In this document: positions 23,874 through 57,242 of the stretch, piece after piece
Position numbering within the stretch: the first letter of the stretch is position 1
How the letters are laid out: each line of letters starts with the position of its first letter
From: Collimonas sp. OK412
GTDB lineage: Bacteria > Pseudomonadota > Gammaproteobacteria > Burkholderiales > Burkholderiaceae_D
NCBI RefSeq assembly: GCF_900112135.1
Contig: NZ_FOLC01000005.1
Span: 1 to 64,000, forward strand
Reading direction: 5' to 3'
DNA: 64,000 nt
Notes under the pieces: generated by a model
Told to the model about the DNA's origin: nothing
The model's input: only the letters and a program-made list of their open reading frames with translations
Databases searched by the model: none
Position numbers and translations under genes: made by a program

Positions 23874-23903
23874 CACGCCCTCCTTTCGTTAGAAAAAAAG
23901 TAA

Positions 23904-23970
23904 CGTGAGCGCAGTTGCAAAATGACTGTACCAAGCCTGGCAGACCGTGTCTGTCGCAACGCTCCTTGGA
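23904..23970 (-). promoter_or_regulatory. SAH riboswitch upstream of ahcY
   Basis: On the minus strand the 5' part CCAAGGAGCGTTGCGAC is followed by a short hairpin, GCCAGGCTTGG and then, after a linker, GCAACTGCGCTCAC. CCAAG pairs with CTTGG (P1), and GAGCGTTGC can pair with GCAACTGCGCTC, the H-type pseudoknot stem of the SAH riboswitch class. Position immediately before ahcY and about 30 nt from its ribosome site fits an ON switch that senses SAH. Recognised by pattern only. Confidence 0.85.
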
Positions 23971-23984
23971 TACGAGCCGCCATT

Positions 23985-54926: not shown

Positions 54927-55573
54927 GACGCCCCCAGCAGGAAGGTCTTGGCCATGGTGCTGTTGTCATGGCCGCGCAGCTGCAGGGCGACTTGCAGGCC
55001 GGTCCAGCGGTTGGCGTTGACGTTGGTGCTGTCCTGGCTGCCAGTGCCGGCGGCCGCGGCGGATGGCCGCCAGCCCTGGCCGTCGCTGCCCCACAATTGC
55101 ATCTGCATGCTGGCGATATCCGACTGCAGCAGCACTGCCTGGCTGCTGTCGCCGGCATCGTTGAGGGAGCTCTGCCACATGCTGTCGAGCTGGTTCAGGT
55201 CGCGCGTGGGCGCCGACTCCTGGCGCGTCAGGCGGCCGTCGCGCAGACGGTAGTCGATGACCTGGACACGGGTCGGCTGCTGGTCGGCAAACACCAGCCG
55301 CACCATCAGCAGGCGCCCCGGCTGCGCCAGCAAGGTGGGACGCGCCGACATCAGGCTGAGCGGAGCGATCTGGGCGCAATCGCTTTGCAGCTGCGCAAAC
55401 GTCAGCTGCATGCCGCGCGTCTGCTCCATTTCGGTGGTCAGCGCAACCCGCGACCGCACGATCCCGTCCAGCCCGCGCCAGCCGAGTATCGCCACCATCG
55501 CCAGGATGGTGATCGCAATGATCATCTCAACCAGCGTAAAGCCGGACGAGCCGTTTTTGCTGCTAACGCGCAT
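54923..55573 (-). CDS. gspJ: Type II secretion minor pseudopilin GspJ
   Basis: A 216-residue minor pseudopilin. The prepilin peptidase site is SSGFTLVEMIIAITILAMVA (Gly before Phe, Glu at +5), then the family-typical WRGLDGIVRSRVALTTEMEQ. It joins GspI and GspK in the tip complex. Its start lies within the last codons of gspI (11-bp overlap). Confidence 0.92.
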   Translation of the reverse strand: MRVSSKNGSSGFTLVEMIIAITILAMVAILGWRGLDGIVRSRVALTTEMEQTRGMQLTFAQLQSDCAQIAPLSLMSARPTLLAQPGRLLMVRLVFADQQPTRVQVIDYRLRDGRLTRQESAPTRDLNQLDSMWQSSLNDAGDSSQAVLLQSDIASMQMQLWGSDGQGWRPSAAAAGTGSQDSTNVNANRWTGLQVALQLRGHDNSTMAKTFLLGAS

Positions 55574-55955
55574 TCGGCACCACCTGCGACAAGTTGATGA
55601 TGCGCCGGTCCGAGCTGGCGTCGGCGAACACCGCTACTTCGACCCGCCGGAAATACGGATTCGGCGTGCCGGACACCTTTTCTTCGCAACGCAGCGGCAA
55701 GTCGCCTTGCGGGCAATCGAAGCTGCGATTGCCGATCGAGGGCCATTCATGGCCGAGACGGATCTGGGTCAGCCGGTTTTCCGCCGACCAGTTCGCCATC
55801 ATGGCGGCGCGCAATCCGCTGCTGTTCTGCGTCAGGCTGCCGACCGCACGCAGGCTGGCGCCCAGCGCCGTGCCGACAATGACCAGCGCCACCAGCACTT
55901 CCAGCAAGGTAAAACCGGCTTGATGACGATGGGGAGGCGGTTTCGGCGTAAACAT
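55563..55955 (-). CDS. gspI: Type II secretion minor pseudopilin GspI
   Basis: A 130-residue minor pseudopilin with a leader MFTPKPPPHRHQAG and the processing site GFTLLEVLVALVIVGTALGA (Glu at +5). The short globular part contains MANWSAENRLTQIRLG, usual for GspI. Its ATG directly follows the gspH stop. Confidence 0.92.
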   Translation of the reverse strand: MFTPKPPPHRHQAGFTLLEVLVALVIVGTALGASLRAVGSLTQNSSGLRAAMMANWSAENRLTQIRLGHEWPSIGNRSFDCPQGDLPLRCEEKVSGTPNPYFRRVEVAVFADASSDRRIINLSQVVPNAR

Positions 55956-56711
55956 TTATTCGACCGCAAAATGACCGATGCCATCGGCGCGGATGACGAC
56001 GCTGCTGTCGCCGCTGGCCATGGTCAGCGCAAACGGCTTGTCGACCGGTTCGCGGCCGAAGGTGATGCGCAGCGTATCCGGCGCCGACGCTTCGGTCGGC
56101 GCCGGATTCATCGATAGCTGCATGGGCGTGCGTTTGAATTCGCGCTGGCGCAGCATGTCGTCCTGGGTCAGCGCCTGCCAGCCGCTTTCTTCGCGCACCA
56201 GGAAACGGTAGCCGTTGGCGTCGGCTTCGAAAGCGGTGGGACGGTTGCGCAAGATGGCTTCTTCGCGCGTCAATTGCAGCAGCAAGGCGATGCGCTGCGC
56301 ATCGTTCTGCATGACCTGCCGATCGCTGCGAAAGGCGTTAAGCGAGACCACGCCCAGCGTGATGCCGGCAATCACCACCACCACCAGCAGTTCCAGCAGG
56401 GTAAAACCCTGGCGCAGATTGCGATGCGCCAGAGGGGCGTGTTGACCTATGATTTGGGAGTGCGAACGCGCGGCAGGCGTTGCGTGCCTAGGCGCAGCGA
56501 CGCGACGTAGCGGCTCATTTGTCAACTGCGCGGCAAGGATGCGGATGGCCGCCCCCTGCAACAACGGCATGCGACGCCTGCAGCCGTTCCCGAAGGGTTC
56601 AAAGCAAAACGTGCGCTGGCCGCGTTGCATGGCTTGCAGGGGCGACCTGCCCCTGCTACGCCACGCGCCTTGCCACCACACGTTTTGCTTTGAACGCATC
56701 TCCCAAATCAT
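55956..56711 (-). CDS. gspH: Minor pseudopilin GspH, 5' end interrupted by an inserted element
   Basis: The pseudopilin part is intact: GFTLLELLVVVVIAGITLGV with Gly at -1 and Glu at +5, then a GspH-like globular domain ending ADGIGHFAVE. But the open frame as it stands is 251 residues, because its ATG (56711) lies inside the right inverted repeat of a 293-bp inserted element and about 93 residues of element sequence come first, so the leader would be 102 residues. No ATG or GTG lies in frame between the element and the processing site; a TTG exists at 56525. Without the element the frame reads MSPLAHRNLRQG before FTLLELL, starting at the gspG stop (TAATG). Whether a working GspH is still made is doubtful. 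Confidence 0.7.
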   Translation of the reverse strand: MIWEMRSKQNVWWQGAWRSRGRSPLQAMQRGQRTFCFEPFGNGCRRRMPLLQGAAIRILAAQLTNEPLRRVAAPRHATPAARSHSQIIGQHAPLAHRNLRQGFTLLELLVVVVIAGITLGVVSLNAFRSDRQVMQNDAQRIALLLQLTREEAILRNRPTAFEADANGYRFLVREESGWQALTQDDMLRQREFKRTPMQLSMNPAPTEASAPDTLRITFGREPVDKPFALTMASGDSSVVIRADGIGHFAVE

Positions 56712-56726
56712 AGGTCAACACGCCCC
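56434..56726. mobile_element. 293-bp element with perfect 27-bp terminal inverted repeats, inserted in gspH
   Basis: Perfect 27-bp inverted repeats at 56434-56460 and 56700-56726, starting GGGGCGTGTTGACC. Inside the right half are nested inverted repeats: 17-bp arms at 56597-56613 and 56679-56695 (containing CAAAGCAAAACGTG) and a central hairpin GCAGGGGC/GCCCCTGC (56636-56656). No transposase frame is present, so it is non-autonomous (MITE-like or a repeat unit). Flanks share only TCT, so a target duplication is not clear. It begins 8 bp after the gspG stop. Confidence 0.7.
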
Positions 56727-56733
56727 GGAGACA

Positions 56734-57198
56734 TTACAAGTCCCACGAACCGATGTCGGCATCATTACCTTCGCCGCCCGGCTGGCCATCCGCACCGTAA
56801 GAGAATATGTCGACTTCGCCCTTGATGCCGGGCGACAGGTATTGATAAGGAGTGCCCCACGGATCCTTCGGCAGCTTGTCGATATAACCGCCGCTCTTCC
56901 AGCCGTTGGCGGCCGGTCCGTTGGTGGGCTTGGCGACCAGCGCCTGCAAGCCTTGTTCGGTGGTCGGGTAGCGCTGGTTGTCCAGCTTGTACAGCTTGAG
57001 CGCCTGCATCAAGGTGCCGATATCCTGGCGCGCGGCCTGGATCCGCGCATCGTCGGTGCGTCCCATCAGCTTGGGCACCACCAATGCCGCCAGGATCCCC
57101 ATGATCACCACCACCACCATGATTTCAATCAGCGTGAAGCCGCGTTGCATGGCAAGCGTGGAACGGCGCCGAAGGGCAGGAAACATTGTGCTATGCAT
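56734..57198 (-). CDS. gspG: Type II secretion major pseudopilin GspG
   Basis: A 154-residue major pseudopilin. Processing site QRGFTLIEIMVVVVIMGILA (Gly-Phe, Glu at +5), then VPKLMGRTDDARIQAARQDI and the C-terminal calcium-loop region DIFSYGADGQPGGEGNDADI, all standard for GspG. The start at 57198 has AGGA six bases upstream and gives a 20-residue leader; an ATG at 57150 would give a leader of 4. It is the first gene of the operon, with a TATAAT box upstream. Confidence 0.95.
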   Translation of the reverse strand: MHSTMFPALRRRSTLAMQRGFTLIEIMVVVVIMGILAALVVPKLMGRTDDARIQAARQDIGTLMQALKLYKLDNQRYPTTEQGLQALVAKPTNGPAANGWKSGGYIDKLPKDPWGTPYQYLSPGIKGEVDIFSYGADGQPGGEGNDADIGSWDL

Positions 57199-57242
57199 TT
57201 CTTTCCTTATCAAAAAAACCATGAACATGTTTGGAAAGGGCG

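Follow-up and report, generated by a model that had tools for sequence, protein, structure and literature searches.

Insertion of a palindromic MITE at the start of gspH in a Collimonas type II secretion operon, and paired changes in the arms of the MITE family

The gsp operon and its 293-bp insert

The window analyzed here, a 64,000-nucleotide stretch of Collimonas sp. OK412 DNA, carries a type II secretion operon on its minus strand. A Pfam search gave the order gspG, gspH, gspI, a prepilin-like gene (N-methylation motif only) and gspK. T2SSG was found in gspG (56734-57228), GspH together with the N-methylation motif in the gspH frame, and T2SSI in gspI (55563-55955), the next gene downstream; other gsp names were assigned by reading the translations of open reading frames. 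Elsewhere in the window, at 23900-23974 of the minus strand, there is an SAH riboswitch aptamer (RF01057, 59.7 bits).

The TAA stop of gspG overlaps the original gspH ATG as TAATG (56736-56732), and gspL and gspM overlap in the same way, both as described in the first-pass annotation. After the eighth base of gspH the gene is interrupted by a 293-bp element (56434-56726, written on the plus strand), or a 291-bp core (56435-56725) if the outer G/C pair is left out. As had been claimed, the element is bounded by perfect inverted repeats around an interior of about 240 bp with nested repeats: the left (56434-56460, plus strand) and right (56700-56726, minus strand) terminal repeats are 27 nt each, 100% complementary and 239 nt apart, and an inner repeat of 29 nt (86%) lies at 56592-56620/56672-56700. 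The predicted fold of the 293 nt is three-armed, with a closed stem and two hairpins. In the family consensus structure these correspond to hairpin A (56464-56589, alignment columns 30-173) and hairpin B (56597-56695, columns 181-283), both given on the plus strand. The fold is far beyond chance, since none of 200 shuffles equaled it either for the minus strand folded as RNA (-196.4 kcal/mol, z -13.4) or for the plus strand folded as DNA (-113.7, z -12.5). The list of open reading frames contains no transposase-like frame within the element.

Both expected effects on the reading frame are present in the sequence. The original ATG (56734-56732) is followed by a TGA after eight codons (56708-56734, minus strand), within the right repeat. 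An ATG of the same repeat (56711-56709) opens a chimeric gspH frame of 251 amino acids (55956-56711, minus strand), in which 102 residues, mostly derived from the element, precede FTLLE. The TGA and the new ATG overlap as ATGA.

The insert is absent from relatives

Each of the 15 genomes searched in the genus carries gspG, and in each of the 14 relatives gspH starts directly after the gspG stop, the overlap being TAATG in 10, TAATAATG in three and TAGGAATG in one. The motif NTG GCG CAT CGC lies 9 nt from the first base of the first ATG in all 14 relatives; in the window these landmarks are exactly 293 nt further apart. The proposal that a mobile element splits gspH had named this junction beforehand as the comparison that could refute it. 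The comparison favored insertion, as the 293 bp is present in no relative (0/14), and a genome search with the repeat, which found matches at many further sites, favored a mobile element. The NTG of the motif, a second in-frame start three codons on, is ATG in 13 of the 14 relatives and GTG in one, and reads CTG in the window. One detail had to be revised: the 12-residue GspH leader taken as canonical is shorter than the leaders of the 13 relatives counted, which span 16 to 25 codons. As a separate observation, the gspH of G001 (L072), a 1.7-Mb genome in which the MITE match is absent, appears by eye to end soon after the hydrophobic helix.

Judging from these alignments, the insert is almost certainly a copy of a non-autonomous palindromic miniature element (MITE), found in Collimonas and some of its Burkholderiales kin, that entered gspH at codon 3 on the lineage of this species. 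It separates the native gspH start from the prepilin frame.

Copies and distribution of the MITE family

Matches to the element were found in 14 of the 15 genus genomes, its own included, and none in the small genome G001. A wider search found matches in 21 of 100 genomes (own included), seven of them outside the genus; in these seven the matches were mostly short pieces, with longer ones in G040 and G056. The exact pattern of one end occurred in 84 stretches of a collection of 84,980 species. Among the 80 matches listed, 58 were from Collimonas and 22 from others, 11 of them Burkholderiales and 11 outside the order; the latter may be chance matches. A plasmid or phage carrier was considered and rejected, as the plasmid and phage collections gave no match to the element.

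Copy ends read GGGC(C/G)TGTT and usually lie next to a duplicated TA. From the best matches and the one-end pattern search, with recognizable ends required, we compiled 96 copies with both ends defined (52-361 bp), a few of them from other genera. The window copy (291-293 bp) has the short length typical of MITEs (about 100-400 bp, no transposase gene), terminal inverted repeats are common to the 96 copies, and copies are dispersed over 14 of 15 genus genomes. Among the papers listed by a literature search we found no report of such a MITE family in Collimonas; the family is new, its kind already known. By description, not by its ends, it may be likened to the Chunjie MITE of Geobacter uraniireducens, which is likewise short, palindromic, non-autonomous and present in many copies, including one within an operon (PMC10969869). 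The Collimonas element belongs to another genus, and its copy instead falls in a coding start and makes a chimeric frame.

Frames open for at least 300 nt on both flanks were seen for 23 of 86 copies (10 of the 96 were dropped for short flanks) versus 129 of 232 control positions, a comparison that counts open frames rather than genes and uses 800 bp for copies and 500 bp for controls. Copies thus tend to avoid coding sequence, which makes the gspH site unusual, and a general habit of inserting into genes gained no support.

Two further observations concern shared sites. Family copies lie at nearly one site in two species (L261 920-1201 in G003 and L266 860-1125 in G008, the latter the same place as L317), a possible insertion hot spot. 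A common insertion in G003 (L267 831-1191) and G014 (L276 832-1096) is absent in the other 13 genus genomes listed, nearer relatives included; it could be ancestral with losses, or reflect recombination or parallel insertion.

Target site and TA duplication

Of the 96 copies, 65 have TA on both flanks, 19 on a single flank and 12 on neither. The 65 copies flanked by TA on both sides show a YTAR preference, the base before TA being a pyrimidine in 57 and the one after it a purine in 62. One empty site (L030) served to check the target duplication: three of 13 relatives (L336, L338 and L339) align flush there and show one TA, compared with two in the filled site. A fourth relative (L337) also has one TA there, and the remaining ones are more diverged or have no TA. 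Target-site duplication is therefore a property of the family, but not of the window copy, whose edges read AG/GGGCG...CGCCC/CG around the 291-bp core, with no TA on either flank.

In eight of the 12 TA-less copies, at seven sites, the core is preceded by G and followed by C: the window copy, L052, L261, L267 and L276 (one site), L273, L280 and L056. At the L056 site, six relatives (L353, L354 and L359-L362) align flush and read TTTAAC, four others (L355, L357, L358 and L363) read TTTAAC too, and the filled sites read TTTG-element-CAAC. Such a site would result either from blunt insertion, if the core is taken to include an additional G and C, or from a TA duplication in which G:C replaced the inner A:T pair on both sides. 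At the L267 site the filled form equals core plus two relative to all 13 unfilled relatives listed, like gspH. At the L261 site this holds only against G012, the nearest relative, the differences to the others being larger, and at L052 the filled form is core plus three or more. For the window copy we weighed mutation of TA/TA flanks, insertion without duplication and a matched replacement of A:T by G:C at the inner target pair; the last fits cleanly at the L056 site only. Because a TA model yields no YTAR context for the window copy, it leaves the flanks there unexplained. Either the window insertion lost its TA duplication or it arose in another way.

Search for a parent element

A transposase supplied in trans and duplicating TA presumably mobilized the MITE. 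IS5-family (IS427-like) insertion sequences duplicate TA in a YTAR target. Such an element is a possible mobilizing parent, as the MITE shows the same duplication and preference (the IS side of this comparison being general background), but no element combining a transposase with MITE ends was found among the loci searched. For most loci the search spanned about 3 kb. Inverted ends 500-4000 bp apart amounted to two pairs, both rejected as parent transposon ends since only 12 and 14 of the 27 arm letters match. Of 20 stretches examined, 19 contained TAGGGCCTGTT without mismatch, and inverted partners were present in just 2 of the 19, at distances of 59 and 37 bp; reversed-pattern controls suggest that some lone ends may be chance.

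On the transposase side the search covered one family, DUF4096, whose profile gave 111 matches in 15 genomes (3-17 per genome, 1 in G001). No TA-flanked ends were seen near the 30 of these matches that were examined as loci (L383-L412). Under looser rules the best inverted repeats at the 30 loci matched at 13-16 of 18 positions; the highest scoring (L404, 16/18) was discarded as a parent because its ends are unlike those of the MITE. Three element-like end pairs near DUF4096 matches were also discarded, each pairing two unrelated ends. Two DUF4096 matches that were read out are 157-aa open reading frames in which, over the part read, no further portion of a transposase was seen; the DUF4096 matches are possibly domesticated transposase fragments.

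These results also bear on the earlier suggestion that the element excises or inverts and so acts as a reversible switch of type II secretion. The perfect ends would suit such behavior, and the insertion common to G003 and G014 (loci L267 and L373), absent in the other genomes examined, nearer relatives of each included, fits precise loss, as it does independent events or recombination. However, since both 27-nt ends have the same sequence, inversion of the palindrome would change nothing there, and no transposase was found in the searches made. The suggestion gained no direct support from the one assembly of the strain, in which a mixed state could not show, and we regard a switch as extremely unlikely.

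Consequences for GspH

The 149 codons of mature gspH are intact, with no stop. The dN/dS values of gspH against G003, G012 and G004 are 0.08, 0.10 and 0.13, compared with 0.04-0.05 among those three. Lineage-specific changes of gspH comprise two synonymous and two non-synonymous codons (five and three in the comparison lineage G011), and those of gspG three and none (four and none in G011). At most, dN/dS of gspH is slightly raised, and the codons are too few to decide. Intact codons and a low dN/dS do not look like a long-dead gene, which counts against an impaired GspH.

The open frame through the element might be taken as a sign of selection. We rejected this, as dinucleotide shuffles stay open as often: the window copy, when shuffled, remains free of stops over 90% or more in 301 of 400 cases, and across the family a stop-free run of more than 90% of the length occurs in 33 of 49 copies and 676 of 980 shuffles. 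Base composition predicts an open frame, so that no selection is needed to account for it.

Considering the layout of starts and stops, we lean towards GspH being weakened or lost, with coupled re-initiation as a residual source, as the likeliest consequence. Ribosomes finishing gspG could start at the overlapping gspH ATG and stop after eight codons. They could then re-start at the overlapping ATG in the MITE end and read through the element into gspH; the product, carrying a 102-residue leader, would be scarce at best. Because ribosomes would stay on the message, the insertion would not necessarily silence the gsp genes downstream.

A serious rival, though we consider it the less likely outcome, is that the MITE has been co-opted: the element would supply both start and leader, and GspH with the 102-residue leader would be made, cut between Gly and Phe by prepilin peptidase, and work. 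The frame is indeed open in phase with gspH and begins at the ATGA overlap, and the intact mature codons with their low dN/dS, described above, speak for it. Leader peptides can vary in length and stay cytoplasmic (PMC10191384), and cases of MITEs fused in frame have been described (PMC10969869). On the other hand, the open frame is what composition predicts, the new ATG sits in the 27-bp stem with no clear ribosome-binding site by eye, and 102 residues far exceed the 16-25 codons of the 13 relatives. Impairment of GspH therefore seems to us the more probable result.

MITEs in operons and in-frame gene fusions were known before, the latter for Rickettsia palindromic elements and other MITEs (PMC10969869, PMC5896051). 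As in gspH, a palindromic repeat lies within a gene and is open in frame; gspH, the one case examined here, differs in that the insert disconnects the native start and carries a new one in its own terminal repeat. As an overall explanation, a MITE insertion that cut off the gspH start and likely weakened GspH, with mobilization in trans, is very probable. A puzzling gene, GspH with a 102-residue leader, would thus be explained as a transposon insertion.

Covariation of the element arms

To our mind the more interesting part is the covariation of the ends rather than the gspH insertion. We aligned 49 copies of 240-300 bp out of 67, dropping 18 shorter or longer ones; L213, of unsettled orientation, was used as read. 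In the 26-bp end stem, standard pairs occupy 98.7% of cells, compared with 87.6% in shuffles and 29-51% when the arms are slid. Double changes affect 15 of the 26 pairs (7.4 expected) and 137 cells (31 expected), the shuffles ignoring relatedness among copies. Further pair types are less striking (27 versus 23.8, a value reached by 19 of 500 shuffles). A 13-nt variable segment occurs in 34 states among the 49 copies, with a mean difference of 4.0 between copies and 0.29 between the arms of one copy; a copy's own arms match exactly in 37 of 49.

Copies had originally been picked by end pattern and arm match, which could favor matched arms. When the arm filter was dropped, 66 pairs among members of 240-300 bp matched at 23-26 of 26 positions and none at 17-22; the other 26 pairings, which reach 16 at most, seem to join a true end to a chance site or to have chance sites at both ends. 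As no full-length copies with badly matched arms were added, the pattern is not a product of the filter, and we rejected copy selection as its cause, with the proviso that the outer 9 nt still had to be recognizable.

Covariation extends to the whole fold, with double changes in 46 of 99 consensus pairs. This raises the alternative that selection acts on an RNA fold and that the element is no transposon but an attenuator or a gene for a structured RNA. When the written strand is considered, G-T exceeds A-C in hairpin A (79 to 1, with 66 of the 79 from two columns) and hairpin B (62 to 14, with 46 of the 62 from one column). This excess, mostly due to three columns, counts against a pure DNA-level view. 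In the end stem, by contrast, G-T (11 cells) and A-C (12) are equal, so that neither strand is favored, and the copies are dispersed with TA flanks. Rfam gave no match at the element at the gathering score, and a relaxed search only two miRNAs and one snoRNA, far below cut-offs. Selection for an RNA fold thus appears very unlikely as the basis of the element.

Paired changes, few intermediates and the lack of strand bias in the end stem of the 49 copies point to DNA-level, hairpin-templated correction. Tentatively, and with less than even confidence, we suggest that such copying from arm to arm keeps the family near-perfect and reaches the target bases (TA...TA to TG...CA at L056), the gspH copy supplying an arm-borne start. 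If so, the two arms of every copy change together as it drifts, and the copies form a natural many-copy set for measuring arm-by-arm correction of DNA hairpins. Template switching, as presented in two papers, homogenizes inverted repeats through compensatory changes, so that arms stay complementary without intermediates, as in the Collimonas MITE (PMC8794818, PMC8604942). The subjects there are RNA genes and yeast coding sequences, whereas the present data come from a single bacterial MITE in its dozens of copies.

Seven orthologous insertion pairs, at five sites, allow a direct comparison. Four of them (three sites) differ in one arm and two show no change; the one-arm differences mean that correction is neither instant nor universal. 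One pair has a both-arm change: the orthologous copies L278 793-987 and L093 1487-1681 differ by a single change that is present in both arms.
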